A stretch of DNA of 64,000 nucleotides from Thermothelomyces thermophilus ATCC 42464 (Eukaryota; Ascomycota; Sordariomycetes; Sordariales; Chaetomiaceae), in contig NC_016472.1 of the NCBI RefSeq assembly GCF_000226095.1, positions 5,828,001 to 5,892,000 of the forward strand, given 5' to 3'. Made by a program: the position numbers and the translations under genes. The notes beneath the pieces are model-generated. The model saw nothing but the letters and a program-made list of their open reading frames with translations. It was not told where the DNA came from and ran no database searches. Positions 12,632 to 63,425 of the stretch are shown here, one piece after another. Positions within the stretch are counted from its first letter, which is position 1; every line of letters starts with the position of its first letter.

Positions 12632-13168
12632 TTTGGCGAATGTTATAATCATTCTAGTGCTAGCTCCTACTACTACCATTATACCTACGGTTCCTATAAG
12701 TGTAAGGATATATATATTAATTGCCTATATGTCTAATAGTTCTTGTAATACTTATATTAATTATAATGGTAGTCCTACTTCTTATATTAGGTTAGCAAAG
12801 GATTTGACGAAGGCTTTATTAGATAGAGCTAAGGCTTCTATAAGTCTCTAAATCCTAAACCTTTACCCCTAACGTATAAGCGAATTGCTAATAGTTACAT
12901 ATAGGATCTTAAGAAGTTATATATAGTTCTTCGGAGTAACCTTAAACGCGCTAGTATAGATAATATAGAGGAGTATAAGCTTGATAAGGCTAAACTCGTA
13001 TATTTTATAAAGATTGCCTACTTTATATACGATATCTTCTACTAGTTAGGCAAGATTAAGGAGGCTTGTAATACTTGTATTAGTATGTCCGATAACGTAT
13101 TAGGTACTATATTGTCGCCTGACTAGGATAAAGGTAAGGGGAAGGCTATTAATCTTAGCAATAGCTGA
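12632..13168 (+). pseudogene. Antisense reading frame between copia pol and its 3' LTR
   Basis: On the strand opposite to pol, one frame can be read from about 12632 to a TGA at 13166-13168. It is broken only by TAG/TAA codons of the kind expected from mutated Gln/Trp. The best part, 12854-13150, has just three stops in about 100 codons; segments include KRIANSY, IDNIEEYKLDKAKLVYF and IKEACNTCISMSDNVLG. The composition is Lys/Leu/Ile-rich with Cys at the front. It follows the end of pol (about 13240, near a recognisable ADGLTK-type tail). I do not recognise the family. A second stop-free stretch of 72 codons in another frame (12633-12851) overlaps, so the true exon structure is uncertain. Confidence 0.5.
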
Positions 13169-13239
13169 TAGTAGTAGATAGAGAGTACTAGATAGTATTT
13201 TGTTTAGTGAATTTGACTTATTTTCTACCCTCTAGTTAT

Positions 13240-16200
13240 ATAAGCCTATAATTGACATCTTAAAGATTAAAGAGAGCCCTCTAGTATTTAAAGGCTTATC
13301 GGCTAAGTCGTTTAGTAAGCCTATTTACTAGTATCTAACTAGTTAGTAGATATATAGCTCTAAATATTCCTTTTGCTACTTCCTAATATAACTATATATT
13401 ATAGATATTTATATATCGTAAGTAAGTATTAATACGTTTATTCTTAGCTATTACTAGTCTTATTGTTTGCTAATTATTATAGTAGATGTTCTAAGGTTCC
13501 CTAAGCTTAAGATCGATATCTATAAATAGCCTTTTAAGTGTTATAGTCTCTCTTACTATAAGGGAGAGTATTAGACGTTCTACTTTAGTGCTTAACGTTA
13601 TAATGGTATCTTAGCATGACGCCTTTTATATAATAGGACCTCCGAATAAGAAGAAGATATATCCCTATAACGAATACTATATATCTAGATCATCTATATA
13701 TAAAGCGTCCCTAGCAATTATAAGCGTTAGACTTCCTAGCGCTTACTTGCCTTTATACTAGATTAATAGGTAAGAGCTTCTAAATAGATATCTTACTACT
13801 ATCTATACCTCTAATAAGTAGTCTAGTCCTAGGTTAGTTAGGTATTAAGAGAGTACTAAATAGGCATATATAACATCTAGACATAATATAACTATATAGT
13901 ATAGGATTAATCGAACAAGCTCCTAATACTCCTCAATCCATATACTAGTAACGCTCCTTTCGAACTTCTTAAGTTCTTTATAACTTAAGGGAGTTAGCTT
14001 ATATATACTAGGTATATCTAATATATATCTTTTTACTACCTTTCTAATATATTAATTATAGACTAACTATATCTTATATATAGGTCAGTCTTAAATTACC
14101 CTAATACCAAAGAACTAACTAATATTACCTTACTTATAGATATTATATCGAGCTTTAATTCCTTCTATTACCTACTCGGCCGCTATAGCGTTACTTTTAT
14201 AGAAGAAGACTAAGAAGTCATTAATATAGAAGATTAGGATAACACGTTTATCGTAGCTTAGGAAGAGGTACTTCTCTTTACCTAATAGTTCTATACCTAG
14301 ATCTAATAACGTTTTACAAAACTCCTTATACTATAAGAGTAGCAAGTCTCTTAAGCTATATAGAGCTCTTTATAACTCTATACATTTCCCTAGCTACTTG
14401 AATCCTTTTAGCAATTCGTAGATAACAGGATCGTCTTCTGGTCGTTTAGCGTTAAGGAACGCTTATACTATATCGAACTACTTAACTTCTAAGTCAAAGT
14501 ACGTAGTGATCGCTATTATTATACGGAACGACTATACCGCTAGAGTAGCTATATATGTACTTTCTACTAAGCTAATATCTTATAGATCTCCTTATATATG
14601 AATCCTTACCTTATATTTCTCTAAGTAACCGTCCTTATTAAACTTATACGTAAAGACCTATTTTAATGGGATAGGTCGCGCTTTTATCTACTTATATAGT
14701 ATAATCTTCTACGTTCCCCTACTCTCTAAGTTATATATCCCCTCGCGAGCTATATCTTTAAACTATTATCCTAATAGGTAGTTATATAGGTCTTACTAAT
14801 TAGTAGGAATATAAGTAAGATCGTCGATATACCAATATAGCTTATTTAGGGCTGCTCTAAAGTATATAGTATCCTTCTATCGTATAGTAGTAGCAAATAC
14901 CATATATATTGTTCTTATACTCTAGTCCTCTAGGTAAGCTTCCTATTAATTAGGTAGGTAAGTCTTATAGAACTATTACTAGAGTTTCTTTATTATATAG
15001 ATAAAGGAGTAGTAGTAATTAACCCTTTCTTTGTTTTATAGCTATTCGCTTAACTATATAGGGCCCCTAGGTATATAAGCCTTCCTCCTACCTCTACCTC
15101 TCCTTATAGGAGGTTACCAAATAGCTTTTCCTTTACTTTTACCTTCTAGAAGATATATTAGCTAATCTAGACTTTGCTTAATACTTTACTTCTCCAGCCT
15201 AGCTAGGTATAATATATTAGTAATACCGTCCCTAGCTTTTAGCTCTTCTATCAATATATTATATATATTTAACTCTTCTATAGAAGGCATTTCTCTATTA
15301 GATCTAATAGCTCCCCTACTCTCCCTAGCGTCTAATTGGCTAGCTAGCGACTAGGAAGGCTCTAATTAAAACCTTCTTACTTCCTAATAAATATCCCCTT
15401 TTCTAGTTAGCGCAGGGTAAGTCACTAAGGGCTTAGGTATATATTTAGGGGTTAAGAGTCCTTTAAAGCTCTCTATTTATTTAGTAAGTTTGTCTATTAC
15501 TTATATCTCCGCTATAAGAGTCTCTAGAACTGATTACTCGCTTATAGGCTATATATTAGAGAGCTTCTTTACCCCTAAGTCTTAACCTTGTTAGAGAGGT
15601 TAGTCTATTACTAGACTCTCTTATAATAGAGGTAGCTAAGCTACTATAATAGAGTCTTCCACTAGTTATTAGGTCCATTATAACGCTTCCTAGAGAAAAT
15701 CGCTATCCTAGGAATCTTTGCTAAGATGGAACTAAGTAACTTCCTAGCTTGCTACCGCTAGTAATGACTCTATTGGCTACTCTTTACCTAGATAGTGAAA
15801 AGTCTTCTTGTCGAAGTAAACGTTATAAGTTATAATGACCCTATCGAGCTTAGGTATCTAAATATAATAGATATTAAATATATAATATCTTATAAGATAT
15901 CTCATTAGCCTATATAATAGTACTTTAAAGTCCTTTATATGCCGCTTAGCTTTCCTATCCTCATAGAGGATATATATCTAGTATCTATATATTAAGATAC
16001 TACTCTAGTCTAGGTATAAGTTGCTAATTAATATAATTATTAAGCTAGGTTTATATTAACGAAAATACTATTTAAACTAGCTATAGAGCACTTTATTAGG
16101 AGTCCTAAATGAGTAAGTATAGCTTAGGCTTATTACGTATAAGTATACTACTACTTATACGCTTTCTAACTAGAGCTTTATAAGGAGATTCGTGCTATTA

Positions 16201-18600
16201 AGTATCTTAATTAAGCATAAGATTAGTTCTTACCCTATTTGCTTTACTAGTCTATTAGGCTTATGGGTATATGAAGGTAAGAGTTTAAGATTAATACCGC
16301 TTTCTATAGCCTAAGTCTAATAATATAATATATATCTTACTAAACTAATTATTGTAATATTATTATCCTACTTAATCTTATAGATAGTAAACCTATATTA
16401 GCGTCTTACCTAGCTCTCGAAATTCCAGATAACTCTTATAATCTAGTCTGGTAACTTTGTTATTAAGAGGAAAGAGAAGAGCTTCCTACTATACTTATTA
16501 ACAATCATAAATAGCTATTATAATCTATTAATTGCTTCGAGATAGTCAAATAGATCCTAGGCTACTTACTAGAACAGGTATATAGACTTCTACTTAGGTA
16601 GTATTTTCCTAGAGATGACCTTGCTTATATAAGTATAAGCGTAGCTCTTATACTTAATATATACCGTCCCCTTAATATAGACGTTTCTAACGTTATTAAT
16701 GAATGCTTTTAACGCTTCTAGTCTAAGGTAGCTAGCTCTTAAGTGCTAAAGATCCTTAGTATCCTCTCTTATAGTAGGTAACGCTTATATATATAACCTT
16801 CTACTATATATAGTAAATACGTTCTATAAGGATATATAAACGTTTATAATACCTACTTTACTAATTAAGATATAGTCTAGGAAGCTCGAGTAATAGGAAA
16901 GTAGCTTATATTCGAGGAATGTAAGATTATACTTATATTCTAACTTATAAAGGATAACGTCATTTTCTAGTGTTTTGAAACGTAATAAGTAGTCTAAGCT
17001 ATAATACTAAGCGCCTATCTTAGGTAATAGAGCTTCTAAGATAATATTAATATAGAATCCTTTAATAATAGTAATATTTTTAAGCATTAGGTTTTTAGTA
17101 TATAGTCTATATAGTCTATCTAGAACATTCTTAATTACCTAAGTGCCCCTCTTATTAATAGGAAAGGTCGTTATACCTACTTTAATAAACTTAGGATCTT
17201 TTACCTTAACAAATGTCGTAGGCAAAAGGAACTTCTTATCGTTAACTAAGTAGGTTATACTATATAAGTCTAGTAGAGTGCTTTCTAAAAGAGGATAGCG
17301 CCATAGAGCGACTATATTAAACGTCCTATAGTAAGTTAAGGGCTTATTAAGTAGTTAAGGGCTAATAATTAATATATTAAGGGAACTAGGATATCTTACC
17401 CCTAATTACCTAGAATAAGATAGTTCTCCCTACTTAGTGATAAGTTAATTTTTTAGTCTAGCCTACTTTAGCTTATTAAGCTCCTAGTAAATCCTCTTAT
17501 ACTCCTTATTAGAAAGGTATAAGTGTTACTTATTACTATGGATAGCTTACTTAAATATATAGTAGTCTACTAGATTCTATAGATATCTTAGATACTTATA
17601 AGAACATCTTGTATTATACTATTAACTACTATAAAAGTCTCTATACAAGTCTCCGCCTCTCTCTTTACTACTCTTCTAAGCTATAAGAAGTATTAGTATA
17701 TAAGTTATTAAGAAAATTCTATACTTCTAAGAAACTCTAGGTTATATATTATTATTAATTAGGATCTCGGCTATTATAATAAGGGTACTAAGCTCTAGAA
17801 GTAGCTATCTTATACTATTAGCAAGCTCGATTTCTATTTTCTTATTTACTACCTAGGTTAGTAAGATATATATAATAATAGCGTTAAGAAAGGTATAAAG
17901 TCCTTATATACCTTATACTTCTAAGATATTATATTAGATAACTTACTAGAAGGCGATATTAAAGTTATAAATTTAACGCTATAGATTAACTCCTAAATAC
18001 TTAGCTATATTAAGACTAGCTATATATTATATAGTAACTATTATATAGAACGTTATAATAGATAATATAAGTATAAAGTAAAGCACTTAGATAATTCCCC
18101 TAATAAGGTTAATATCCTTCTTCCTATATACTTTTATAGCTTTATAAAATTTAAAATCCATAATATATATTAACTAGCATTATAACTATCCTATCTACTT
18201 ACTAATATCTATAATATATATAATATCTTTATAAAAGGAATCTTATAGTTATATAAATTTAGCTATAATAGCTATATTAGAAGGTATTAAATCTATAGAT
18301 ATTAAAGGTAATAATCCTTCTAAGAGTTACTCCTAAAAAGCTAGGATAAGGTTATCTCTAGCTTACTTATAGGTTAGGTACTATAAAACTTTTAGATCTA
18401 GCTTATAGTCACCATTAAGGTTAATAAATCCCTATATATTAGTAAATTTAGCTTATAATTATAGTTTAATATACTATAAGTTCTAGGAACTAGGCCCTAT
18501 AAGGTATATAGAAGTCTCGATTAGGATCTTAGATATAATAGACACGTCATCGAAAGCGTATTAAAGCAGGGTAAGAGAGTTTATAATAGAAGAAGCTACT
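13240..18600 (-). pseudogene. Copia gag-pol polyprotein remnant
   Basis: This is the decayed polyprotein of the element. Recognisable parts, in order on the minus strand, are a copia-type integrase tail (15790-16020, with IPKLDRVIITYNVYFD), RT with the active-site box at 14217-14228, the segment TPLSYKELKKF, and RNase H with GYIFFLFGGPII. The RT box reads Tyr-Ile-Asn-Asp instead of the usual Tyr-Val-Asp-Asp, so the first catalytic Asp is lost by a G to A change. Stops occur throughout. Gag could not be delimited. Confidence 0.8.
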
Positions 18601-18637
18601 ACTAATATTAAAGATACGTCGGCAGAGGAGTAGTCAA

Positions 18638-18654
18638 GGCGCCGGGCTTATAAC
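18638..18654 (-). other. Primer-binding site of copia element (half-tRNA type)
   Basis: Directly inside the 5' LTR the minus strand reads GTTATAAGCCCGGCGCC. From memory of initiator tRNA-Met, GTTATGAGCCC is the complement of its anticodon arm, so this fits priming by an initiator-tRNA fragment as in Drosophila copia and Ty5-type elements, with one RIP-like G to A change. The same site follows the LTR of the second copy at 45794. Confidence 0.55.
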
Positions 18655-18866
18655 TGCCGAACGTAGTAATGAGCTTCTGGGAGCGTTGAAAGCAGTCTGT
18701 AGTAGGTGGCTGTACAAAGGAAAAGAGTGCCTTGTTGAAACTATCTACAAAGGAGACAAAACGACTGATATTTATAGACAAAGGAGCTGGCCAAAGCGTT
18801 GAACAGCCTTATACAGCTGTGGCATATATGTGGCTAATACTCTTAGAAGCTCCATAGCTTCTGACA
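18655..18866 (-). repeat. 5' LTR of first copia element
   Basis: This is 212 bp, TGTCAG...GGCA on the minus strand, with a TATAAATA box (about 18771-18778) in the promoter position. It is almost free of RIP compared with the adjoining interior. Confidence 0.9.
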
Positions 18867-18871
18867 CTTGT
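18867..18871. repeat. Target-site duplication of the first copia element, right copy
   Basis: CTTGT directly follows the right LTR and matches 11928-11932. Confidence 0.9.
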
Positions 18872-19059
18872 GACCATGGCATTGCTATTTCTTTCTATAG
18901 CTGAACACCAAGGCCCGTACTTCAATGCTGCTTCTAGGAAGATGATGTGGTGGCGCATTCTGCTGCTCAAAGGACGCATGGGCTGAATCTGATAATTGAA
19001 ACCATGATAAGCCACAGCTAAGCCGGCACGACGGGGAAGAATGGCGCAGTGGGCCGGTC

Positions 19060-20214
19060 TTATTCGGCCACTAATCGATACTCACATTGTGCCTTCACCG
19101 TCTCGTCTGAGTCAAAGTTTTTGATCAGGCAGACTTCTTCGGGCCTCTGGTTGCTGAGATAATACCAGTGATAGCCGGGGCGATATTTCGCGAACATGGT
19201 GGATCCGACATAGTCGCGTCGGACAAGGTCGGTTTCGAGGAGGTCATCTCTGGTTATCGAGGCGCCGTCGCACAGGGCCAGCGGCCAGTTCTCGACGGTC
19301 TCGGTCGGCCGCCACAAGCTGATTTGGTTGCGCTCGTCTTGATTAGTACCTGGGACTTATGCGTTGCGGAGGGTCTCGCGAGAGATGGAGCACTCTAATT
19401 ACTTGATGATTCTCAGTCTGCCCTCGAGAAGGGAGGACGCGCGGTCACCCTTCACCGTCTTGACTCGCTTAATAGCGCCGGCCGGGCTCTGATCTATTAA
19501 GGTTGGAAGACTCAGCACTGTCAGCATCATGAATCCACAATTCCCTCATCAATGCCCACAGTTTTTTTAGCGCCTCCGAAGTTATGGTCCCTCTCGGAAG
19601 AGAGAGCCAACTCACCAACATGAGCCTGCTTGGCCGGCTGCAAAGGATCGGCCGGATCGTTCATGTTCGGCGGCCTAGGGGTCTGCGATGTATCTAGGGA
19701 AGGAGTAGCAGGTGTTCCCATTTGCCTTCGCCTCTCCTGAAAGTCAGCTACTAACTGCCGTCATCCGCACAGGAAGGGAAGGAAGAATTTCTAGGAGGAA
19801 AAAACGCCAATAAAAAGAGAAAGAATGTGACAGAGATGAGGAATGAAAGACAACAAAGGAATAGATTCATCAGCTTACTCTCCAATCAAAGATTTCGACC
19901 TCGTCGGCGCCATCCACCAGTCGTTTGAGCAACGACTTGACTTCAGGCAAGTAACACTCCTCGACCTTGGACCGGGAATCCCAGTCCGAGAACGAGGTTG
20001 GGGCGGTGACATGGCAGAATCCATTGTCGTCAAGGGTGAAGGGCCGATCGGCGAGCCGAACGTCCTGGATGGTCTCGTCCACTGCCTCAAACACCAGATT
20101 GGAGGGCGCAATATCTCCAAGGTTAGGCAGATGAGATAGGATCTGGTATGGCTTTTCCTGGCGGTAAATGGGGAGGTCTCTGACATAGAGCAGCTTTGCA
20201 TGGATCGTGGTCAT
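19060..20214 (-). CDS. AsaB-like non-haem iron hydroxylase/desaturase, 268 aa
   Basis: Four exons on the minus strand: 20214-19879, 19736-19616, 19493-19403 and 19318-19060. They join in frame to 268 aa with GTAAGC, GTGAGT and GTAATT donors. Features of the family are the start MTTIHAKLLYVRD, the metal-ligand type HVDQS motif across the exon 2/3 junction, GRLRIINLWRP across the exon 3/4 junction, then WPLALCDGAS and WYYLSNQRPEEVCLIKNFDS. Relatives (AsaB, GA4-desaturase and cephem-methoxylase related proteins) carry out oxidations in fungal specialised metabolism, probably as Fe(II)/2-oxoglutarate enzymes. The gene looks intact. A copia element sits about 190 bp past its stop, and an 80-aa Cys-rich gene lies upstream on the same strand. 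Confidence 0.85.
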
Positions 20215-20933
20215 GATGGTCAATATCGGCAACTTGGAGCACAGCCTTTAGACTTGACTGCGGCAAGATTTCTGACTGCGTTCGTGTGCTGTTCGTCATG
20301 TTGACGGCTCGGAGAGGTGGCTCTTTCCGAAGCTTGAACGCTTAGGCGTAACCATCCCTCCCCCCACGCATCATTTAGGTTTATTTCGGCAGGCGCGGAT
20401 TGAGAGATCACACCTATGTCAATAATTGGTCGCTGCTCCGTGCATGTGTATAGGTGCATGTGTATATTACTCGGCATACCCCTCTTTCCTTCCTTATTCA
20501 TCAGGCTCAGCCTTCTGGCAGTATTAATATCCGAAGTTTTGGGACTTACAAACGGAAGTGGAGGAAAGAGGGGAGAGGGGGCGTGGGAGTCAGCGGAAAC
20601 TTTGACAAAGAGAAGGAAAAAAAAGGGTAGGCCACCTCAAGCTCGACACAAATTGGACCCAAGAGTACTAGTATTAGTCCAAGATAAGTAGGCCACAACC
20701 TACGTGGGGGTGACAGACTTGGAATTGATCCCAGTATAACTTGTGTTCCTCGAACCAATACAGAAACGTGAAACATCTTCTTCCCCTCGTTATCCCACCA
20801 GATTCGAAAACAGCCACTTGCGCAAATTTCCGCGCTTTGGACCCCCGATGGTCACATCCGACGGTCATTGCACACTCCTCGCCTCTACACCTGGGGCCGA
20901 CTTGCATGTGAAGAGAAGGTCCTTTGGCGTCTC
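20215..20933. other. Intergenic region upstream of the AsaB-like gene
   Basis: This should hold the AsaB-like promoter and the 3' end of the Cys-rich gene. The short open frames crossing it lack recognisable motifs and are treated as chance. Confidence 0.45.
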
Positions 20934-26607: not shown

Positions 26608-26739
26608 AGGAAACCGAATGAGAGCGGTAATTTGTGGTTTACCCGGCTAGCAAAATGGAGCCGGCATAGCGGCCGGCTTTCTCAGACTCCGGCTCCATTT
26701 TGCTGGCCGGGTAGACCGGAGCTCTCGCTCGGTTTTCTC
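26608..26739. repeat. Long inverted repeat, MITE-like
   Basis: A 25-nt arm at 26640-26664 pairs with 26689-26713 with one mismatch around a 24-nt loop. Imperfect pairing continues outward (GAAACCGAATGAGAGCGG against the complement of the 26714-26739 side). It could be a small non-autonomous transposon relic or a transcribed hairpin. No clear target duplication was found. Confidence 0.65.
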
Positions 26740-46523: not shown

Positions 46524-46943
46524 TGTCACGATTTGGCTATATAAGGCAACCTAGCAAGACGCACAAGACCAATCAGGAACCACAAGACCTAAGGACCAAT
46601 CAGAAAGTGATCGCAGTGATCGCACTTCGATCAAGATAAGCACTTAGGTAACAATCGCAGGACTATAATAGCAATCGCACGATCAAGACTCAAGGAGGAA
46701 GGACAGGGAATTGTATATAGTCACTCGTTCCACCGGACTCTAGCAAACTCTAGGAGTTCACCAGTAGTAACAATCACAATCACAGTACTTATACCAAGCA
46801 TTGCTAATTACTGTAAGAGATAATTCTAAGTGTTATTATAAACCCTTTGGCTTTACCGAATCCCTTAGACGACCTGCCTACCTATCCTACTCAATCTACC
46901 TTCGTCTGAACCCTTTTAGAAGAAGTCTAAGCTAGGTTTGTCA
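46524..46943 (+). repeat. 5' LTR of chromovirus
   Basis: 420 bp, TGTCACG...TTTGTCA. It has a TATATAAGG near its start, two CCAAT boxes (46569-46573 and 46596-46600) and repeated GATCGCA/AATCGCA motifs (46609-46684). Confidence 0.93.
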
Positions 46944-47011
46944 TACGTTGTTACTACTCCCTTTGTTCTATTATGGTTTAGAACGGAGGTGACTTTGACC
47001 TTGACATCGAC

Positions 47012-49329: not shown

Positions 49330-52300
49330 GCAATCTTTAGACGACGGCGGCAAGACAAGCAACTATAGATAACAACACAATAGAAACAGCACGAAATGCT
49401 TGTACTAGTAGACAGTAGAGCAGAGATAAACCTAATTTTGCTAACGTTTGTAAATTAGCTATAGATACCCTAGAGAATGAAGTAGAAGCATAGCATAGTC
49501 AAAGGACTATTTCCAATGTAATAGGTATATAAGGAAACCAAACCGATCGATATCACTATAGTAGGAAAGACTATAGTAGTCATATTTAGTATCGTAGATA
49601 TAAGCAATAATAAAGACATAATACTAGGGTTACTATAGTATGAAGATTATAACCTAGACATTAGCTAGAAGAATAGTAGCTACCTATAACCCTAAATAGA
49701 GTTATATTCGACTAGCAAGATAGGGAGCATATAAGGATCGCAAGAGGACGATGCTCGAGGAAAGGCATGTCCTACAGATCTACCGTAAGAGACAGGTAGT
49801 GGTAGACAGACTACTATAGACTCTAGAAGAAGTAGCAAAACAATACCGACGCTATAATAGGAGGAACGAGCTAAACCATTAATAGCTATTCTCTCTATTA
49901 ATAAGTATAGAGCACTATAACTAGAGCAGTAGGTCGAGATAGGAGAAATCGCTAGCATCGCTATAGACAGAACCAAGTTCGTATACTATCAGAAAACCGA
50001 GAGACGAGACAAGACTAGGGAAGTACCGAAGGAATACGAAGGACACCTAGCATTTGAACCAAAATATCTAGAAGGGCTACCAGAATACGGCCTATAGGAT
50101 TACGAGATCAAGCTTAAGGAAGGAGCACGATTAAAGTTCTTTAAGATTTACTATACAAGCTAGACATAGAATAAAGAACTTAAGCGATATTTAGAGGAAA
50201 ACCTTTAAAGAGGATATATCTGCCTGTTAATATTGCTAGCAGGCTACCTAATCCTATTTATGCTAAAGAAAGACGGAAAGCTATAGTTATATGTTAACTA
50301 TTAGTAACTTAATAAATAGACCGTGAAAAACTAATACCCGTTACTACTAATCTTACAGCTCTAAGATTAGTTAGTAAGAGCCTAATATTTTACGTGTCTT
50401 GACTTACTATCGGCCTATAACTATATATAGATTAAAGAAGGCGACAAGTGGAAAACAGCCTTTAGGACACCCTATAGCTACTATAAGTACCTCGTTATGC
50501 CATTCGGACTTACAAACGCGCTAGTAACGTTCTAAGCCCTGATTAATTAAGCTATCCAACCCTTTCTCGACAAATTTGCGGTATATTATCTCGACGATAT
50601 ACTTATCTTCTCCAAGACAATAGACGAATACTAGAAGCACGTAAGAGTAGTGCTAGACGCGCTACACGCGTACAAGCTATCAGTTAACAAGGAAAAGAGC
50701 GAATTCCTTGTTCGGAAAATGGTGTTTTTAGGGTACGAAATATCCCTAGGACAAATTCGGATAGAACCTTCAAAGGTTAAAGCTATCAAGAATTAGCCAT
50801 AACTAACGATAGTCATAGAAGTACAAAGCTTTATCAGATTTGTAAACTTCTACCAAATGTTTATTAGGAACTTTAGAGCGATTGTACAACCTTTATACAA
50901 ACTTACTAAGAAGAATACTAAATTCCAATAGGAAGGATAACATAAGTAAGCATTTATATAGATTTGTAACGCCATTACTAAAGACCTAGTACTAGTACTG
51001 CCGGACCCTAAGAGGCCATTTGAGGTAGAAACGGACGCTTTAGACTACGCCATCAGAGGACAATTAGGATAACGAGATGGATAAGGAAAGCTATATCCTA
51101 TAGCCTTCTTTTCAAAGAAGCTCGATAGACTACATCTTAATTATCCGATCTATAACAAGGAACTACTTACAATTGTCAAAGCTTTTAAGGAATAGCGACT
51201 ATACCTTAGTAATACGATCAAACTAGTATAAGTATATATAGATTATAAGAACCTGCGATACTTTATAACAACAAAGGAGCTTAATAGACGACAAATACAA
51301 TAGGCAGAATTCCTTACGGAATTTAACTTTGAGATCTGCTATAAGAAGGGCAAGGAAAACGCACGAGCAGACATCTTAAGCTAACGAACGGGTCATATAG
51401 AAGGACGAATGGAAATAACGCTACCATTATTCAAGGAACGAATAGACAGGACGTTATATCACGAAACGTAGATACCCGTGGAAGATGATCCACTTGACTT
51501 ATTCCTAGAATGTTGCGTAATCTTTCGAGAAGAAAGGATTAACAAGGCACAGTATCAAGCAGCACCCGGACTACTAGTACCTAACGAAGTGAAAGAAAGA
51601 GATAGGAAACTCTAGTACTAAGGCAAAGCATATATCTATAACAGGGATTAATAGCTACGAATGATTCGAGAACTCTATAAGTCGAAACTCGGAGGATATA
51701 AAAGAGTTACGAAAACTGTCGCACAAGTCAAGAAACACTACGACTTTCTATAGTTAACGGTATAAGTCAAGGAAGTTATACAAAGCTACGATATCTACAA
51801 CCGAAGCAAAATGGCATGATATAAGCCGTATAGGCTACTTTAGCTACTGCTAACACCTGATAAACCATAGAGTTCGGTTACGATAGACTTTATCACGAAG
51901 CTGCTAGAATCTAAGGATATAGCTACAGGAGTAGTCTATAACAGCATCCTTACTATAGTAGATCGCCTAACTAAATAGGTATATTTCTTTCCCTATAAGG
52001 AGTCCTAGATAGTAGAATAGTTAGTAGATATAATCTATTAGTAAGTTATATTAGTATATGCTTGGCCACGAGAATAGATTACCGACAGAGACACCAAATT
52101 CGCATCAAAATTCTGGCAAGCGTTAATATAACGATTAGGCATTAATAGCAAACTGTCAATAGCATATCACTTATAGACCGACAGACAAACGGAGCAATTA
52201 AACTAAATCGTCAAATAGTATCTCCGTTCTTACATTAACTACCAACAAGACAACTAGGTCATACTATTACCAATAGTATAGCTCGCTTACAACACAACGC

Positions 52301-53000
52301 TAACAGAAACGACCAAGGTCACACCATTCTTCGCGAACTACAGATATAAAGCAAACCTTAGACAAGGACTAGAGATCATAGTGCCGAGAGCAGCAGTCAA
52401 AGCAGAACAAATGCACGCACTACATGAAAAGCTCAAAAAGGAACTCGAGTTTGTCAAAACAAGGATAAAGAACTACTACGACAAACACAGGCTCGAGGGA
52501 CCTCGCCTAGAGAGGGGAGACAAAGTTTACCTAATCTCACGACACCTACGAACCAAACGACTAAGCGAGAAGCTAGACTTCAAAAAATTAGGACCATTTA
52601 TTATTAAAGAGCAAATCTCGACATCTAACTATCGACTATTGTTACTATTATCTATATAACTACAGACAGACGTTTTTTATATTTCACTCTTAGAGCCAGC
52701 GCCAAAGAACGCCAAAGTCGTTACAAATATCGAAGTAGAAGACGAAGAGGAAGAATAAGATATTGAAGAAATCTTAGATTCACGAGTTATTAATAGAAAA
52801 CTACAATATCTGGTTAAATAGCTTGATTTTAGACTAGAAGATAACTTATAGGAACCTATTAAGAACCTAAATTGCCCTGAGAAACTTTAGCAGTTCTACT
52901 AGAGGAACCCTAATCGACCGAAAGCGACAGACCAGAAACCAACCCGAAATCGGCTAGCAAGGACGGATCTAAAGGAACTTTAGAATATACGGTATCCCAA
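49330..53000 (+). pseudogene. Chromovirus Pol (PR-RT-RNaseH-IN-chromodomain), broken
   Basis: The protease box reads DSRAEIN at 49411 (Gly expected for Arg). RT has MPFGLTNA and the active site YLDD at 50587-50598, still intact. RNase H has DALDYAIRGQLG near 51031 and ends near 51380. The integrase core has the first Asp in TIDFITKLL (about 51883), DRDTKFASKFW (about 52085) and the catalytic Glu after QTD. Then KLGPFIIKEQIS (near 52580) is a GPF module, and a chromodomain (about 52745-52910) has ILDSRVINRKLQYLVK. Chromodomains direct integration to heterochromatin in this lineage. Many stops interrupt the frame. Confidence 0.85.
52381..52659 (+). pseudogene. Open segment: integrase C-terminus with GPF module
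   Basis: A stop-free 92-codon stretch of pol. It is Lys/Glu-rich (LHEKLKKELEFVKTRIKNYY), then RGDKVYLISRHL and KLGPFIIKEQISTSNYRL, the conserved GPY/F-type end of Ty3/gypsy integrases. It is part of Pol, not a separate gene. Confidence 0.85.
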
Positions 53001-53497
53001 AGCTACCTAAAATCGGTAGACAAACGAGATAGGGTCAAAGAAGACGTAGTAACCCTAAAAGTTTCCGCTACCGCCGCCACCTTAGCCTCCTCACGCTCTA
53101 CTCGTTCTAACTCCTCTACACTGTTAATACCCCGAGCAATAGCCCTTATTATCTTCTCAAACTACATCCGCTTTTGTTTCCGAAGACGAAGGACTCGCTC
53201 CTTAGTAGCTATAAGTTTATCCTTAAGTTTCTAATGCTAAGCCGCGATAGAACGAAGCTGAGCAGGGGAAACGCTAAGAACGTCACAATTCGAGCGTTTA
53301 TTACGGACGTACTCTACGTATTAAGAAGAGTCGGCTTTCGAGACCTTACATAAACTAAGGCCTTTAGACTTATATGGCGAATAAGGACGTATCGTTAAAA
53401 GGCTATCTAAAGAAAGAATCGCCGTAAGAAGGTGATTAGCATGAAGAGTCGATATAACAGGTTTAGATTTCGACTTCTTTCTCACATAATCAGCCAT
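52860..53497 (-). pseudogene. Antisense accessory frame of the chromovirus (coiled-coil type)
   Basis: On the strand opposite to pol a frame starts at ATG 53497 (MADYVRKKSKSKPV) and can be followed to about 52860, with only TAA/TAG interruptions at likely Gln/Trp positions (first at 53321-53323). The middle is strongly helical and charged: KDKLIATKERVLRLRKQKRM and NSVEELERVEREEAKVAA. The end has SKVPLDPSLLADFGLV. I have seen similar Lys/Arg/Glu-rich helical sequences among hypothetical proteins of many ascomycetes, often near gypsy elements. It overlaps the 3' end of pol and starts 132 bp from the 3' LTR. Role unknown; nucleic-acid binding is only a guess from the charge. Confidence 0.65.
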
Positions 53498-53614
53498 CTC
53501 GACAACATCGTAGGAAGGCAAAGGAAGGAAGAAACTAGGAAACGCAATTACGTATAGATAGGGGATATTAGCGCTATTTAAAATAGACCAGAGTCTTTCG
53601 AGGACAAAAGACCT

Positions 53615-53624
53615 AAAGGAAGGG
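53615..53624 (+). other. Polypurine tract of chromovirus
   Basis: AAAGGAAGGG lies 5 bp ahead of the 3' LTR, in the place of the plus-strand primer. Confidence 0.6.
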
Positions 53625-53629
53625 CATCG

Positions 53630-54049
53630 TGTTACGATTTGGCTATATAAGGCGACCCGGCAAGACACACAGGACCAATCAGGAACTACAAGACCTAAGG
53701 ACTAATCAGGAAGTGATCGTAGTGATCGTACTTCGATCAAGATGAGCACTTAGGTAACGATCGCAGGACCGTAGTAGCGATCGCACGATCAAGACTCAAG
53801 GAGGAAGGACAGGGAATTGTATATAGTCACTCGTTCTACCGGACTCTGGCGAACTCTGGGAGTTTACTAGTGGTAACAATCACAATCACAGTACTTATAC
53901 CAAGCATTGCTAATTACTATAAGAGATAACTCTAAGTGTTGTTGTAAACCCTTTGGCTTTACCGAATCCCTTAGACGACCTGCCTGCCTGTCTTGCTTAA
54001 TCTACCTTTGTCTGAACCCTTTTAGAAGAAGTCTGAGCTAGGTTTGTTA
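53630..54049 (+). repeat. 3' LTR of chromovirus
   Basis: 420 bp, ending TTTGTTA. By my hand count it differs from the 5' LTR at about 36 positions, all transitions. Confidence 0.93.
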
Positions 54050-54056
54050 TAATATC
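54050..54056. repeat. Target-site duplication of the chromovirus, right copy
   Basis: TAATATC follows the 3' LTR and matches 46517-46523; copia sequence resumes directly afterwards. Confidence 0.75.
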
Positions 54057-54733
54057 CTAGAAGTATAAGGTATATAAGGACTTTATACCTTTCTTGATAC
54101 TATTGCTATATATATCTTATTAACCTAGGTAGTAAATAAAAGGATAGAAATCAAGCTTACTAATAGTATAGGATAGCTACTTCTAGAGCTTAGTACCCTT
54201 ATTACGATAGCTAAGATCCTAATTAATAATAATATATAACCTAAAGTCTTTTAGAAGTATAGAATCTTCTTAATAACTTATATACTAATACTTCCTATAG
54301 CTTAAAAGAGTAATAAGAAAAGAGGCAAAGATTTAAATACTTAGTAATATAATATAAGATATCCTTATAAGTGTCTAAGACATTTATAAGATCTAATAGA
54401 TTACTATTAGACTAAGGCTAGAAGTTCTTAATATAACTAGAGAGACATAAGGTATAGTTTTATTTTTCTAGTTCTATAGAGCTTTATTATATATAATAAG
54501 TATAAATAGAGGTTACCTATCTAGGGGCGCTAGATAGATAGATAAGGAAAATAGATAGCTTTTAGTACTCGTTTTACTCTAATAGATTAGAGTAGTAGGA
54601 TATAGTTCTTCTTTCTTTTATAAGTTAGAGATATCTTTTTCTACGTAAGTAGACTCTTTTACGTCTGTCTAGAGGGATATCGTTATCGCTACCTTTGCCC
54701 CTATCGTCGTTACCGTCTAGATAGTCGGACTTG

Positions 54734-54933
54734 CCTACTATAACCGTAAATACTCGGACGCCCTGGACTTTTTAAGCTAAAGCTCCTCCCTATTTGACTA
54801 GATAGAGGTTTGGTTCTAGAGGTGCTAAGTAGTACCTTAGAGGATTAGCACTAGCTTATATTTTTAGAGGTTTAATTAGGGAGGAGCTTAGCTTTAAGTC
54901 TAAACTGGACTACCGGACTTTAAGTGTAGTAGG
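54734..54933. repeat. Imperfect inverted repeat
   Basis: Arms of about 55 bp beginning CCTACTA (54734) and ending TAGTAGG (54933) pair imperfectly, best at the inner AGCTCCTCCCT portion. It may be part of an LTR, a small transposon relic or a structured leader. No target duplication is visible. Confidence 0.5.
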
Positions 54934-57900
54934 ATAGTAATATTTATAATAGAGGAATAAAGATATATATATAGAGATATATATAGTAAAACTATTAGGA
55001 AAGTAAGAAGAGCAAATGTAGGTGCTAAGAGATTAGTATATCTAGTAGTAGGCTAGGAAACTACTCTTGCCCTAATATAATAATACTACCGGTAGAGATA
55101 GTAGAAATTATGGGATAATAAGTTTAAAGGAGTTTGACGTCTATCTAGAGAGATAGAACCTCTAAAATATAGATTAGTGACACTAGAACTGTTTGGGATT
55201 CGGAAACGAGATTTTAAAGTTATATAGGCGCTAAAGGAAAGCTTTATAGCTATCTTAGCCCTAGTTACCTTAATATTAGCACTTGCTAGCAAAGGTATAT
55301 CTACCTATATATTACTATTCTTTAGTAATCTAGTATAGATTTGTTTTATTATTCTAAGAGTTCTGACTTTAGGGGTTAGAGCGCTATTATTATAGGGTAT
55401 CCCTTATTAGAAGGTTTAGGAATAGCTTTACTAGGTATACTTTAAAGGAATAAAAGCGGTAGACCAAGTTTATTTTTAATCTTACTAGTTATAAGAAGAT
55501 TTAAAGAAAAGAAGGAAGTCTTCCTAGATTAGTTATTTAGATAAAAGAGTTATCTTTAAGGAAGTTATCTAAATAGAAAGGTATAATTAAAGATAATAAC
55601 CTTAGGTACTACTCTTCTTGATAGTTTAGTAAATACCTTAATTAGAATTACTACTCTTAATGCCTTTTATATCTAGGTATATTAAAACCTTGTTAGGAAG
55701 GACGCTATTAGAATTACCTTAATCATAAGAGTTTAGAAACCTTACTTTAGACTTAGAAGTTAAGCGTTATACTTAAGTAGATATTATAATAGATAGACTT
55801 ACTAAAGTTATTTAGGTTATATTCCCTTTACTAATAGACAAGGGATTACCTAGTCTCTTTTCCAGTTATAATATTACTAAATACCTTAAGCGTTTTGTAA
55901 AAGCTTATAAGATCTTTAGTAAGGATAATAGCGATAAGATCTCTTACTTTAAGTAATAGTATATAGACAACCTTTAGGAAATCTTAGACTAGTAGCCAGA
56001 ATTAAAGAAAAAGGACTAGGCTACTCTTAAAGCTACTATTAAGGAACACTAGAAGTAGAACGACTCTTACTAGGAAACCTCTACTTAGGAGCTAAAGCGT
56101 CTTCTAGATTCCTAGTATATAGATTTGGCCAAGTCTATCTATAACTACCTAGAGCATATTAACGTCTTACTTATCTAAGTGCTAAAGAAAAAGAAAGCGG
56201 TCTATTAGTTATCGGCTATCTAGAAGGTATAGGATAGGTTTCCCTCTACTTTCTAAACTAGTCTTTAGGTCTAAAAGAAGGGTAATTCGTAGGTTGATAA
56301 TATAGAGTAAGAGGATTTCTGTAACTTTATATAGAAGTATCTATATAAGGGAGTCAATACTAGGTTAATATACTATAAGCTAGATCTGAAAGGAAGAGAA
56401 GTTAAACTATAGATAAGCTAGACTATTAAGAAAAGCCCTTTAGCTCCTTAGATATAGGAAAGTCCTTTAGGTTTATCTGCCTAGAGAGATACTACCTTTG
56501 ATAAGATCGTTAATAGGCTTGTAGATACCTTATATAAGCTTTAGATTAATAAGGGCAAGGTTAGCTATAAATCCTTGGATAGAGGTAGGTGTTCCTATAA
56601 CCGGATAGATAATCTAAGTAATGATAAGATTAAGGAGATCCGGACCTACCTATCGGCTGCTTAAGAGTCTTAGTAGAAGAAAGAGAGTAGTAGGTTCTGG
56701 CTAAGTTTAACCTTAATTATGCCTCATAGCTACTATTACTATGGTAATTAGATATACTTTACCTATAGGTATCTAGTCCTAGTAGAGGATATCTATAATA
56801 GTCTTGTTTATTAGCCTAGTTTTAAGTAGATCTTAGGTAAGAGAGATCCTAGTCTTCTAGAAAGCTAGTAAGTTAAGATCCTTAGTAAGGATATAACTAT
56901 TATAGCTAATTAAAGAACCTAATAGTATATTATTTATACTTATACCTCTCTTTAGCTAGATCTTTCCAATTAAAAGCTATATTAACGATTTATAAGGAGT
57001 TACTAAAAGAAATATAATTAAGAATATTATCTAAATCTAAATCTTATTACTAATAAGGCCTTCCTTTGATATACTAAAGGTTTATACCTATTAAAAGTAG
57101 TTATAACCTCCCTTAATTATCTTACTAATATTAAAAGAGTTTCCCTAGAGTTAATCTATGATTATACTAGGGCTAGAGAGATTAACTTCTAGATAGATCG
57201 TAAGTAAGGTAGATATATTCTTATCTAATAGGTAAAATAGACAACGTCTTGAACAGACGACCCCGTTTTTACCACTGACTATAAGGGTTTACTAATAGAC
57301 GTGTTATAGTCCAACTAGATAGTAATGTAAGCTTTTAATACTATTAAGTTAGAGGTTAATAATAAAGATATTTCTAATAAGGATGGCGATATAGTGACCA
57401 TAATATAGAGTATTACCCTTATAAAGTGCCGTTTTATAGAAATAGAAGATAAGCTAATATAGGATCCTATTAGGTAAGAGGGGATCGATAAAGTAAAAAC
57501 TATTTAATTATTAAAAAGAAATATAGAAGTAAGAGAAGCTTACCTTCTAGCTATAAGCTAAAGAGTTATAGCTATTACTAAGAGGGCTACCGATCTAGCT
57601 AGTAAGGGAGCTTTCCCCTTAGCTAGATAGAAATAAACTGTTTGCTTTAGGGAATTAGAGAAATTGACTAAGGAGAATATAGCCTATAACGTACTCTCTC
57701 TAGTTAGTAAGGCTCTTTAAGCGAAGACACTTACTATTAATAAAGTCTTAAGGATCTCCCTAGCATTTAAGAACGTGCTAATTACATTCTTTAAGCAGGA
57801 TTATAAAGGTCCTTAGGAGGTAATTAAGTATAAAGGCTTAGCTATTCCTTTCCCTAATAAGCTAGCTTTATAAATAAGAGGGAGACCGCTATAAGAGGTC

Positions 57901-58159
57901 AAGATATACCTTAGCTATTTAGGTAGATAGAGTAGTATTAAGGAAGAAGAGTCCGCGATCACGGTTCTAGTATTTTTAGGGGTTACTAGTAATGGCTAGT
58001 AGGCTATTATAATAGACGGTTTCTAGAGTAACTACCTTATTAGACGGCAAGACTAGCTAGACTTATAAGGGATTAAAATATCCTTTTAGGCTTTAATCTA
58101 TATACTTTCGGCTAGCTAGAAGATCTAGATAGATATACTTATATAGATATATATATTAC

Positions 58160-61100
58160 TAACGCTCTATTATAACTTTAAAGATCTAAAGGGTAAGAAG
58201 GTACTTGTTCCAATTAATACTAGATCTAAGTATAATATAATTACCCTTAGCCTAGTATAGAAATACCGTCTCCTTATATAGATAATAACGGTAATTTCCT
58301 AAGGTCTTTATAATAGTAGGCCATTTACTAGGGAAACGGTTAATATAATTATCTTAAGGGCTATCTCGATCCATAAACATTTCTTCATTTTAGATAGAGA
58401 TACTAGTAATTACTAAATCTTACTAGGTATACCATTTATCTATAATATAAGCCTAACATTTAATTATAAAACCGGCCGTCTGGTTATAGCAAACATTATC
58501 ATCAAGAATAAATTAATTAAAGTGTTGGTTATCTTAGACATTATAGTTAAAACGACATTCGAAAGAAAATATTAACTTATAGAGGACAAACTCCAGCGTC
58601 TAGTCACGACGACTACCACTACCCCTATATTTACTAACGTTTAGGATAGTAAAATTCTACTTAGATTCCTTAATAATCAGGCTAATAAAGCTATTTTTAA
58701 TATAATACTAAGGATTTCTTGCCTACCTCTTATCGATACGCTTACTAAAGTTTCGACATTTCATCTTACTAGATAGGACACTTTAAAACAGAGATACTAG
58801 GAAATAGAGAGCAAAATAGAGAAGCCTAGCCGTCTAGATAGACGGAAAACGCTTAGAAAACTTATATCAGAGGTTAGAAAAGAGTTATAGGAGGTATAGA
58901 CGTTTACTATACGAAAGTCTATAGCTAGAAAAGTTCACCCTATAGATACGGCCGTTAGTAATAGTTTAGTACCTAATAGTAACCCTAACTAGTAGAAATA
59001 GTACCTAGAAAAAGCTATTAAAAAGATAAAGTTTAGGTTAGAGTAGAATAGCCTTATTACGCTACGGTTTTTAGACCTAGAGACTAGGATATAGCTTACG
59101 GCCGAATAGCTTAATATATTACTTACGTCTATAGGAAGCTTTCTATCTAACTAGGAAAAGGAACTCTTTATATAGGTCCTATAGAACTAGGAGGCTGCCC
59201 TAGTATAGGATTTTACTAAATATAGGCGGATTTACCCTGACATTGTCCCTCCTTAGGTTATCCGGACCATTCCTTATATAGCGTAGTAATCAAAGAGTAT
59301 CCCTATCCCGAAGCCGTTAATGCCAAAGGTTATTAACCTTTTAAAGTAGCGGATCTAGCGTAGGATTATTAAGCCTAGCTATAGGAGCTATTATAATAAC
59401 TGGTTTCTAGTTTTTAAAAAGGATAGCGATCTCTAGCTAATTAATGATGCCTAGAAAGCTAACGCTATAACTATATAGGACGTATTCGTACCACCGGCTA
59501 TAGAGGAATTTAGTAAAGACTTTAGTAGTTATGAAGTTATCTCTCTCTTAGACCTCTTTTCTAGGTATGACCAAGTTAGCCTTGATAAATAGAGCTAGGA
59601 CCTTATAACCTTTCAAATGCCTATCGGCCTCTTCCGGATATATACCCTCCCTATAGGCAGAATAAACTCTATTACCTAATTTTAACAAGCGATGACCTAG
59701 ATCTTCCAAAACCTGATTCTAGATATCTGCTACATTTACCTAGATAATATCTATATAAAAGGGCCGCGGTCTAACTATAATAGGGAAGAAGTTGCCCCTA
59801 GGTTATAGAAGTTCGTAGTTAAATACCTCTAAAACGTTAATATAGTCCTTCTAAACGCTAAACTTGCCAGAGCTACTATCGTAGCTAGGAAATCCTAGTA
59901 ATGCCGCCTATAAGCAGTGTTACTTAGCTATCTCTATATACCTAAAGGGCGACTACCTAATAATATTAAAGTTATAAAAATCCTTAAGTAGACTTCCTAT
60001 TCGGATTTAAAGGATATTTATACCTTCCTAGGTATTATTAGCTACTACCGGATCTAGATAGAGCACTTCGCTACGATTACTCGGCCGTTATATAACCTAA
60101 TAAAGAAGAATACCTGTTAGGAATAGGGCCTTGCTTAATAGCAGGCTATAAAGGAACTCTAAACTCGAATAACTACTACCTTAGTCCTTGTATCGCTTAT
60201 TTTCGATAACCTTAGATATAGTTAGATATATCTAATGACTAATATAAGTCTTTTTAGTTAGGGAGGAGTTATTAAATAAGTTGGCCTTAATAAGAAGAGG
60301 TACCTATACTAGTTTAAGAGTAGGATATAGTCTAAGGTAGAGAAATAGTATAACCTTACTAAATAGGAGCTCTATAGACTACTTTTCCTATTAAAACGTT
60401 TCTAACGGTACCTCTTTAGCGTTTACTTTATTATAGAAACAGATACTCTTATCCTAGTTTACTAGTTAAACAGCACGGCTAGTAATATACCTAGAGTCTT
60501 AATAATATAGTAGATTGTATAGATTTAGCTATTCGACTTTAAGGTTAAGCACATTCTAGATTCCAAAAACGCTATTACTAATAGGCTTTTATAGAAGCTT
60601 CCTAGTCCGTCTAACCAGATAGAGAAAGCAAACAAAGAAGATATTAACGATTAGGTTAATATATAAATCTATACTAACTATATTAGCGATCCTCCTAAAC
60701 CTATAGACCTAAACCTTAAGGAAGGATACTCTAAATACTCTAGAGCTATCGTATAGTACTTAGCCACTCTAGAAGAACCTATAGCTATCCGACCATATTG
60801 GCGGCGACATCTATTTAAGAAGGAAGCGCTTAAATATTTGGTAGATAAGGGCTATCTATTTCTTCGGCTAGCAAACGATACCTAGAATCCTTGCTATATA
60901 GTAGATACTCTAGAAGAAAGGTAATAAATTTTCTAGGCTTGCCACGATAAGATAGGCTATAAGGGCAGAGAAGCTACTTACTAGAGGGTTATTAACTACT
61001 ATTACTAGAAGGGAATATATACTAACGTAGTAAAGTAGATTTGTACTTACCTAGAGTATTAGGCGTAGGATACTAAAAGATTTAAGGAGGTATATTTATA

Positions 61101-62285
61101 TTTAGAACCTTCTCTAATCCTATTTGTAAAATGGCACTTAGATATCTAGTTTATACCTTCTGACCAAAGGGGGAAGCCCTGTTTCCTCCTTAAGGTATAT
61201 AACGATCTTTTAGGATTTATAGAAGCCAAAGTCCTACCTAATAAGTTAGCTAGAGTAGTAAAGACCTTTATTAACCGTAATATTCTCCTTCGTTAGGGAC
61301 TCCTAATAGTTATAGTTATTAATAGGGGATCTAAATTTAAAGGGGAAGCGAAAGCTATTTTAGAGGAACTAGGGGTAAAACGTATTATTATCTCTCCCTA
61401 TAACTCTAGGGCTAACGATATTAGTAAGGCTAAATATATACCTATTATAGCTACCCTAGCAAAGATGACTATAAGGATTAGAAAGAACTAGCGATAGCTT
61501 CTTCCTTACGTCTCATATATTAATTATATTACCATTTGGAATAGCTATAGTCGCTTACCCTTTAACCTTATCTATAACTATAATCCTATTATCCTGATTG
61601 AAAACGATGTCCCTACCTAGCGAATCCTTTAATAGGACTCTATAGCCGTCTGACTAGATAGGGAAAATCAAGTAGAGGCCTATCTATAATTACTAGAACT
61701 CTATACTAAGGTATTACTTAATATAGAATTCGATCTAGAAGTTACTACTAAAAAGGTTACTAAAGCTAGGCGAAAAATGGCTAAACGCCGAAATAAAGCC
61801 TACTACTATAAATTTAGAGCCAAGAATGCCTAAATCAAGGCAGGCAATCTTATTCTAGTTTACGATAACATTCGGTAGATTAATATAAGCTTGTTTCGAA
61901 AACTCTAATACTAGTAGTATAGTCTATATCAGGTCTAGGAAGTCGGGAATAGGAATACCTACTACCTAGAGACTCTTAACAGTATAACTATATAGATACT
62001 GTATTCTATAAACCATATTAAGAAGTTTTTCAAGCGGGATAGAGTTTAACTTAAAGCCGATAGATTCAATAGTTTTCTAGGTAAGCAAAACCCCTAGAAC
62101 TAAATAGGTTCTTTACTACCAGAAGTGCTTAAAGAAGTAGTAGTAGAAGAGGAAGCTCCTAGACGAACTAGATAACTATAATTAAGCGACCGACTTACTA
62201 GATCTAAAGCCTAAAAGTAACAATAGTAACGGTAGGAGCTTATAGTCAAACTAACTAAAGGGAAACTACCTAGATTTTAACCTTT
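58160..62285 (+). pseudogene. Pol remnant of the decayed gypsy element
   Basis: Readable across many TAG/TAA stops: a protease-like segment near 58200-58450 (ILLGIPF), an RT with SLLDLFSRYDQVSLDK (59540) and active site reading Tyr-Leu-Asp-Asn at 59737-59748, RNase H with ETDTLILVYQLNS region (60440), the integrase zinc-binding part (CHDKIGYKGREATYQRV near 60940), and the core with LDIQFIPSDQRG and ISPYNSRAN (61130-61420). The second catalytic RT Asp is changed to Asn, consistent with a GAT to AAT change. Confidence 0.75.
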
Positions 62286-62539
62286 AAGCCGTTAATAGAG
62301 ATATAAGTTAACCCTATTCGATTTCACTTCTATTTACTCTTTACTACCTAACCCCTAATTACCCCTTTTCTATACCGCCTTTACCCCTTTTCCTTAAATC
62401 TCTAATTCCCTACCTATAATCGCCATTTACCCTATTTATAAGCTACCTATTAATCCCTAACTATACCGTCCAAATCCGTTAAAATTAGAGAGCTCTTTTT
62501 CTATATTATTAGCTAGACATTCTTTAGCTAGCTATTAAG

Positions 62540-63425
62540 GTTAAATTTGGCCTGACCTACAAGCCGAGGGTTAGAATCTTAGGAGCCATCGTTAACTATA
62601 TCTTCCTATAAGCACTTCTTGTCACTCTAGTAATAGTTTCTATACCATCTATCTAGGATAGGACCTATTGAAACGTAGCTATAGAATAGCTATATAGTAT
62701 GGATAGTAATAGGCTTCTTATTCCTTAGAGGGATAATCTTAGTTATCGACCTTTAGTAGGACTATTTATAGGCCTAGCACGGTACCGGATTCCTATATCT
62801 CTAATTAGCTCTTCCTTTAACTAGAGGGAGGAAGTTATTCTTATATATCCCTAAATACCTAGATAAATAAACCGAGAACTTAGGCCTAGTAGGCAACTAT
62901 AGTATAAATCTACTAACTAAACAGACTACCGTTATTAATTTCCGTGAAAACTAGGTATAACTATTTTGCTAGAGCTCCCTTATAGGTATAGAAGAATTCT
63001 ATATAGGTAGGAGTAAGTCTTAGGATTCTAAATATTTGCTCTAGAGCATTAGGATTAGGGTTTAGCTCCTAGCGAATGTATAGGACTACCTATATCTTAA
63101 GGTGCTTAATAAAGAAGAATCTATAGTATAAAAGGAATAATTTATACTAGTACTATATTAAGGCTACCTCTAGATAATCTAAAGGCATTAGAGGATCTTC
63201 TAGGTAAGCTACTCTTACTACCTATATAAACTTAAGAGGCGCTAGGAACCGATTATCCTGGGTAGTCGTTAAATCTACCGGTTAGTTAGTTATTAAGGGA
63301 AGTATAGGCTTAGTATCCTTATCGATTTCTACGTCTTCTTAGATAGAGGATTTATATCTCTAGCGCTTAACTCTTTTAATAGATATAGTAGTTAAACTTG
63401 CTTATAAGAGCTTATAGCAAGTTCA
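62540..63425 (-). pseudogene. Antisense frame downstream of the decayed gypsy pol
   Basis: On the minus strand one frame can be followed for some 290 codons with interruptions almost only TAG/TAA. Clear stretches are ISIKRVKR, EDVEIDKDTKPILPLITN, DNRFLAPLKFI, RVAYLEDPLMPLDYLEVALI, ELNPNPNALEQIFRILRLT and PTYIEFFYTYKGALAK. Such ordered sequence in DNA this decayed points to former coding. I do not recognise the family, and it shows no obvious similarity to the antisense frames of the other two elements. Confidence 0.55.

Follow-up and report, generated by a model that had tools for sequence, protein, structure and literature searches.

A mutated antisense gene of the brtn kind in a chromovirus of Thermothelomyces thermophilus ATCC 42464

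We analyzed a stretch of 64,000 nucleotides (nt) of the Sordariomycete Thermothelomyces thermophilus ATCC 42464 (contig NC_016472.1, positions 5,828,001 to 5,892,000, forward strand; hereafter the window), taken from a genome of 38,744,216 bases in seven contigs. The window contains a copia element (minus strand), a chromovirus (plus strand) and the greater part of a gypsy element (plus strand). For each of these three long terminal repeat (LTR) retrotransposons, an initial annotation had proposed a coding-like frame antisense to pol near the 3' end. The chromovirus frame had been placed nearly to the nucleotide: what lies at 52859-53497 is a genuine gene of 212 codons in mutated form. Its sequence makes it a homologue of brtn, so the kind of gene is already known. 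The copia and gypsy frames are read here as sequence eroded by repeat-induced point mutation (RIP), with no evidence of a gene. Hence, the window presents one inherited gene, not a solution repeated in three families. The chromovirus features are as follows:

46524..46945, plus strand: 5' LTR, 91.5% identical to 53630..54051 over 422 nt
52282..52659, plus strand: pol end, integrase tail with SH3_Tf2-1 (Pfam SH3_Tf2-1, E 1.6e-7)
52660..53052, plus strand: pol C-terminus, chromodomain and tail, its end placed in the window by collinearity with the stop-free copy L083
52859..53497, minus strand: RIP-mutated brtn-type antisense gene, ATG at 53497, 212 codons, stop at 52861-52859, matched by the homologue profile
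53630..54051, plus strand: 3' LTR, paired with 46524..46945

The window copy of the antisense gene is interrupted by five TAG and one TAA internal stops. At locus L083, positions 450-1088 form an ATG-to-stop open reading frame (ORF) of 212 amino acids (aa) that maps onto window positions 53497-52859. The pol end of this locus (895-1401, minus strand) is also stop-free and matches Chromo (PF00385; E 3e-15) and SH3_Tf2-1 (E 1.1e-13). Read at the sequence level in L083, the two genes are convergent, with a tail-to-tail overlap of 194 nt. The initial annotation had correctly put the chromovirus frame over the 3' end of pol, and the other two frames past the pol domains detected. The ATG of the antisense gene sits 133 nt to the pol side of the 3' LTR, and in stop-free copies the open frame extends back into the LTR. 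Across 52860-53497, no stop of the antisense frame is common to all 30 copies compared (the window's included), and the other five frames hold 3, 8, 2, 12, and 4 such stops. The antisense run without a shared stop covers 334 codons (52862-53864).

A six-frame search of the genome returned 88 matches to the 212-codon gene (E ≤ 0.01), of which 15 were full-length and stop-free. We also scored 122 of 702 candidate reverse transcriptase (RT) matches. All 30 that lay in a pol frame of at least 1,169 aa (12 of the window's type, called type A, and 18 of a second type, B) were accompanied on the other strand by an antisense gene or exon free of stops, always 1,646 nt past the RT match; 3 of the 15 type A genes had no RT match within this scored set. 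Two further stop-free RT matches belonged to frames of only 353 and 490 aa, with stops in the adjoining antisense copies. Of note, near-identical stop-free sets of chromoviruses coexist with heavily mutated relatives in T. thermophilus, and recent bursts seem to have escaped RIP.

At E ≤ 0.01, a search with the 212-aa protein of L083 found 99 homologues, and with a 42-sequence profile the number of matches at E ≤ 1e-5 was 150 (the best 7,991 candidates by shared words were scored and 120 matches listed). Among the matches listed were proteins from Colletotrichum, Fusarium, Pyricularia, Gaeumannomyces, Cordyceps, Metarhizium and Hirsutella, as well as Cryphonectria, Cytospora, Microdochium, Chaetomium, Parathielavia, Coniochaeta, Botrytis and Sclerotinia. 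No homologue context was found in the viral and prokaryote collections. The profile, which included one T. thermophilus sequence (L083), matched window positions 53497-52865 at E 1.2e-63. Because this sequence was its first row, the profile was rebuilt from the remaining 41, none from this genome; it still matched the same positions at E 9.5e-63 and all 30 RIP-mutated copies at E 1e-43 or better. Neither the 42-row nor the 41-row profile had a match in the copia or gypsy elements, in agreement with the initial impression that the three frames are unrelated. By these protein matches, the antisense gene is conserved over many ascomycete genera, its antisense position having been read in this genome. 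Two proteins annotated as hypothetical in the public T. thermophilus record, P0001 and P0009 (MYCTH_2054177 and MYCTH_2313167), are pieces of antisense genes of this family.

One homologue, the Botrytis protein P0122, is named 'Putative BRTN' (profile E 1.5e-32; 32% identity, E 1.8e-26). The gene brtn has been described as an 'additional antisense gene' of the Boty-like retrotransposons of Botrytis cinerea (Zhao et al. 2011, Virology 417:248, as cited in PMC7264820, PMC4227169 and PMC8365987), and such a gene was therefore already on record in fungi. A Monilinia transcript similar to BRTN is mentioned in PMC5987419.

As RIP makes only transitions, we counted transversions for tests of selection. 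Outside the pol overlap, the nonsynonymous to synonymous (N/S) ratio of transversions in the antisense frame was 0.46 (p 0.001) against locus L088 and 0.53 (p 0.002) against L087, the latter being the weaker of the two, since L087 is rearranged and the last ~50 nt of its comparison are a forced alignment. In both comparisons this was the lowest ratio of the six frames (next lowest, 0.54 and 0.66), and with a protein-guided alignment the values were 0.49 and 0.53. The antisense cassettes of L087 and L088 are 88.7% identical over 479 nt; they share one cassette, so the two comparisons are not independent and amount to one test seen twice. Copies L084-L086 and L089 were uninformative on selection because they differ from L083 almost only by transitions. 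With the pol overlap left out, as the initial annotation had recommended, these substitution patterns indicate that the chromovirus antisense gene is under purifying selection. Locus L087 (G000:C6:3324700-3325600) carries a diverged, L088-like antisense gene followed by an LTR fragment within about 100 nt, and the pol tail was not found in this locus.

The product appears to be a small protein made of a six-cysteine cluster, a long helix predicted as a coiled coil and a C-terminal tail, and fold comparison suggests that the cluster is Gal4-like. The six-cysteine pattern was present in 96 of the 110 homologues of at least 150 aa, and the helix following the cysteines is a strongly conserved block. 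The binuclear Zn2Cys6 cluster has the consensus CX2CX6CX5-12CX2CX6-8C. This spacing occurs in 24 of the same 110 homologues and in type B; the window type, with CX2CX7CX9CX2CX7C, departs from the consensus (PF00172). In Foldseek, the isolated cysteine domain matched Gal4-type DNA-binding domains in 14 of 14 cases, each at E > 1. The whole-protein fold search gave no useful match, and a sequence search of solved structures gave weak matches only, mostly coiled coils and some TRIM entries. From this layout the product is probably a small zinc-binding regulator, and it may act as a transcription factor.

A second intact chromovirus type was found in the same genome. Type B, represented by locus L099 (G000:C2:26000-27800), is abundant and partly free of RIP, with 18 copies having a stop-free pol frame of 1264 aa. 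Comparing one copy of each type, we observed DNA identities of 95.6% in the RT (495 nt), 94.4% at the pol end (377 nt), 96.7% in the distal LTR (122 nt) and 79% in the leader (112 nt), while the antisense proteins share only 28% identity. The LTR also differs in one part:

53638..53846, plus strand: LTR segment on the pol side, U3 judging by its position, differing between the types, no match to the type B locus L099

Both flanks of this divergent part match L099 (53847-54059 at 86%, 53562-53637 at 76%). A predicted antisense-strand intron of 71 nt, bounded by GTAAGC and CTAG and containing a long pyrimidine tract, interrupts the type B gene; without it, the cysteine and coiled-coil parts form one frame of 196 aa. 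Exon 2 of this gene was stop-free in 18 of 150 matches scored (from 602 candidates). The template for LTR retrotransposition is the sense RNA. An antisense-strand intron would survive retrotransposition, as it would not be removed from that template, and antisense encoding could thus allow a retroelement to retain a gene that has an intron.

A third cassette was found at L088 (G000:C5:3741630-3742530), a mosaic in which a strongly diverged antisense gene stands beside a type A pol end. Transversions against L083 number 19-31 per 100 nt up to about L083:800, roughly 100 nt before the pol end is reached, and 0-2 beyond that position, which suggests recombination near the pol end. On this sequence evidence, the antisense gene and the U3 look like one exchangeable cassette. 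We tentatively propose that a Gal4-like antisense regulator and its cognate U3 form an exchangeable cassette of ascomycete chromoviruses, swapped among elements with a common replication machinery by template switching near the pol end, so that the transcriptional identity of the element changes. This idea may be likened to the swaps of immunity or specificity modules in other mobile elements and, if true, would explain how one pol lineage diversifies its regulation.

Taken as a whole, the best explanation is that the chromovirus carries a true, inherited accessory gene of the brtn type, which would tune sense transcription through the U3 and be exchanged with it as a cassette, and we give this explanation about an even chance of being right in all its parts. 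Transcription of the antisense gene would start in the 3' LTR or the adjoining leader and run leftwards. Its protein would dimerize, bind the element's own U3 and tune sense transcription. The gene and the U3 would be exchanged together between elements sharing pol, in which case regulator and target would stay matched. An action on the element's own expression, which the initial annotation had raised, is possible and has become more concrete.

Several observations weigh against this reading. In the scans made, no member of the family reached the Pfam cut-off for Zn_clus: 5 of 42 members matched at E ≤ 1 (best E 0.073), and the best of five proteins scored 13.7 bits vs 21 required. In Gal4-type clusters one loop contacts DNA and is basic; the equivalent loop of the window type is not basic. 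The U3 and the antisense gene may be exchanged together simply because they are neighbors. Finally, the wrong frame +0 across the chromovirus pol runs for 422 codons without a shared stop, exceeding the antisense run of 334, and holds 1 shared stop in 432 codons vs 2 in 433 for the true pol frame. Shared stops were rejected as sole evidence of coding, being non-specific, and the case for the chromovirus gene therefore rests on the open copies, the homologues and the constraint.

A serious possibility, if short of an even chance, is that the brtn-type protein is real and no transcription regulator, with the particle, integration or a competing element as its target, or that the antisense RNA itself does the work. 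The missing basic DNA-contact loop of the window type fits this alternative, and the conserved helix after the cysteines could be a protein-protein surface. However, every structural match of the cysteine domain, weak as each of the 14 is, was of the Gal4 type, and the purifying selection seen on the protein speaks against a role of the RNA alone.

The gypsy element measures about 11.9 kb; some 3.6 kb separate its pol from its 3' LTR, and roughly half of that region falls beyond the window edge. Its features are as follows:

54408..54859, plus strand: gypsy 5' LTR, 91.6% identical over 452 nt to the 3' LTR at 65894-66345 (coordinates extended beyond the window)
59515..61044, plus strand: gypsy pol with RT, RNase H and integrase zinc-binding domain (RVT_1 E 4.8e-7, RT_RNaseH E 4.1e-8, read with X at stops)
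62540..63425, minus strand: the antisense frame of the initial annotation, unsupported, no frame standing out

Its Integrase_H2C2 match (E 6.7e-5) is below the family cut-off. A second gypsy copy lies inverted next to the first, at 67413-73998 in the same extended coordinates. In the stretch 62540-63425, the length of which is not a multiple of three, each of the six frames contains 7-10 stops present in every copy. The pol control itself carries 7 shared stops in 398 codons, and the stop test consequently has little power in this element. Its transversions were too few for a phase test, as the copies differ almost only by RIP. Attempts to use more distant loci gave no alignment for L094, and L098 mapped to pol with 5 transversions. 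None of the close relatives in the gypsy RT search was stop-free (122 rows scored of 702 candidates), the stop-free rows being chromoviruses at 24-25% identity.

It is improbable, in our view, that the gypsy element alone carries a further antisense gene that RIP has mutated beyond visibility. The longest run without a stop common to all 30 copies in the sampled part (61040-64900) does fall in antisense frame -1 (62560-63055, 165 codons), in a stretch where the test is weak, and this counts against a non-coding reading. Nevertheless, each of the six copies with the highest G+C content has 11-14 stops in this run, close to the other frames, and a Pfam scan of the copia and gypsy antisense pieces found nothing above cut-off.

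The features of the copia element are as follows:

11933..12140, minus strand: copia 3' LTR, 96% identical to 18655-18862; the element runs on the minus strand
12632..13168, plus strand: the antisense frame of the initial annotation, no evidence of coding
14025..14684, minus strand: copia reverse transcriptase (RVT_2, E 7e-10 and 2e-13, pieces read with X at stops)
18655..18862, minus strand: copia 5' LTR, paired with 11933-12140

Stops common to all copies compared (at least 10 per codon and 21 at most) number 4, 16, and 6 in the three plus-strand frames vs 1 in 147 codons in the pol control, and the six stops of the proposed frame are among those present in every copy. The substitution test reached 12540-12900, with three copies of diverged subfamilies that possibly share ancestry, and 12890-13090, with one copy; the remainder aligned poorly. 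In the first interval, 49-56 transversions were spread evenly over the codon phases (p 0.53, 0.68, and 0.59), and the N/S ratios of the plus-strand frames ranged from 0.73 to 1.76 (lowest p 0.26), none clearly below 1. In the second, the copy L091 gave 22 transversions, whose phase leaned towards the proposed frame without reaching significance (p 0.12; ratio for that frame 0.49, p 0.14). The sense frame -1, which was not the target, had a ratio of about 0.45 (p 0.012-0.018) and 15 stops, and was not significant after allowing for six frames. The RT of the same copia families served as control and was strongly phased (p 8e-8, 2e-4, and 4e-8), with pol-frame ratios of 0.16-0.20; 13 of 15 control windows of matched length gave p < 0.01, and the frame mirroring pol was also low (0.33-0.57). 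All 124 copia RT matches in the genome contained stops. On these sequence comparisons, the copia frame is not coding where testable.

Three independent antisense genes in three unrelated LTR families are thus very unlikely. One family is certain, and the gypsy region after pol is long and has its longest run without shared stops on the antisense strand. However, the copia transversions are unphased where those of the RT control are clearly phased, the six copia stops are common to every copy, and the gypsy frames are indistinguishable from one another. Only the chromovirus member of the proposed trio finds support, and the idea of a repeated solution is not supported.

The observation that had drawn attention to these frames, an interruption almost only by TAA and TAG, is accurate and not diagnostic. 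RIP converts CpA to TpA on either strand, and hence TGA to TAA as well. All three elements bear its mark, with TpA/ApT ratios of 1.5-1.8 vs 0.66 in a genic stretch, and over all frames TGA makes up 3.5, 10.6, and 2.9% of their stop triplets; the figure for the genic stretch 19900-45000 is 45%. This depletion affects every frame, and the stop spectrum was therefore rejected as evidence of coding. More generally, stop spectra in RIP-mutated DNA are uninformative on coding, and the phase of transversions between subfamilies offers a test that RIP does not blur. That the chromovirus frame is itself a by-product of base composition and RIP is next to impossible: the strand is T-rich, all frames are poor in TGA, the longest open run in dinucleotide shuffles of L083:319-1088 has a median of 106 codons and the wrong frame over pol likewise lacks shared stops for 422 codons, yet only 1 of 1000 shuffles equalled the longest open run of the antisense strand, the gene has homologues in other genera and is under purifying selection, and the profile lacking any row from this genome refutes this explanation.

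What is new here is the spread of the family over ascomycete genera, the Gal4-like layout of its product, and a second intact chromovirus type with a differing antisense gene and U3. A little-noticed accessory gene from the retrotransposon of one plant pathogen can thereby be seen as a widely distributed protein family whose layout is open to testing. In the literature on antisense genes of fungal and other LTR elements, in which subscription papers are thinly covered so that absence is not proven, we found nothing on how widely brtn occurs, on the cysteine cluster or on an exchange of cassettes.

Like the Gal4-type Zn2Cys6 regulators, the predicted protein has a six-cysteine cluster followed by a coiled coil; unlike them, most members have a first-half spacing of 7 instead of 6, the DNA-contact loop is not basic in the window type, and scores remain below the Pfam cut-off. 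HBZ of the human T-cell leukemia virus type 1 (HTLV-1) is a nuclear regulator encoded on the antisense strand and read from the 3' LTR side, a basic leucine zipper (bZIP) protein of a retrovirus. The chromovirus gene may be likened to it by layout, as an antisense-strand gene for a putative nuclear regulator on the 3' LTR side, and HBZ is mentioned in PMC11963269. Antisense ORFs are also described in the plant Gypsy elements Retand, Grande and RIRE2 (PMC11963269, PMC7264820), which differ in their hosts and, in the case of Retand, in a far longer region after pol. The Retand-type TRP28 domain (PF04195) was absent from the matches of the L083 protein at E ≤ 1 and from the best 25 of 81 families. 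The closest known system is brtn of the Boty elements, which likewise occupies the opposite strand of a chromodomain Ty3/gypsy element, in the interval from pol to the 3' LTR, and encodes a homologous protein (32% identity to the database protein 'Putative BRTN'). Compared with brtn/Boty as portrayed in the papers citing it, the gene described here has a Sordariomycete host, a tail-to-tail overlap with pol and mostly CX2CX7C spacing, and T. thermophilus holds two intact cassettes on one pol backbone, one of them with a predicted intron.

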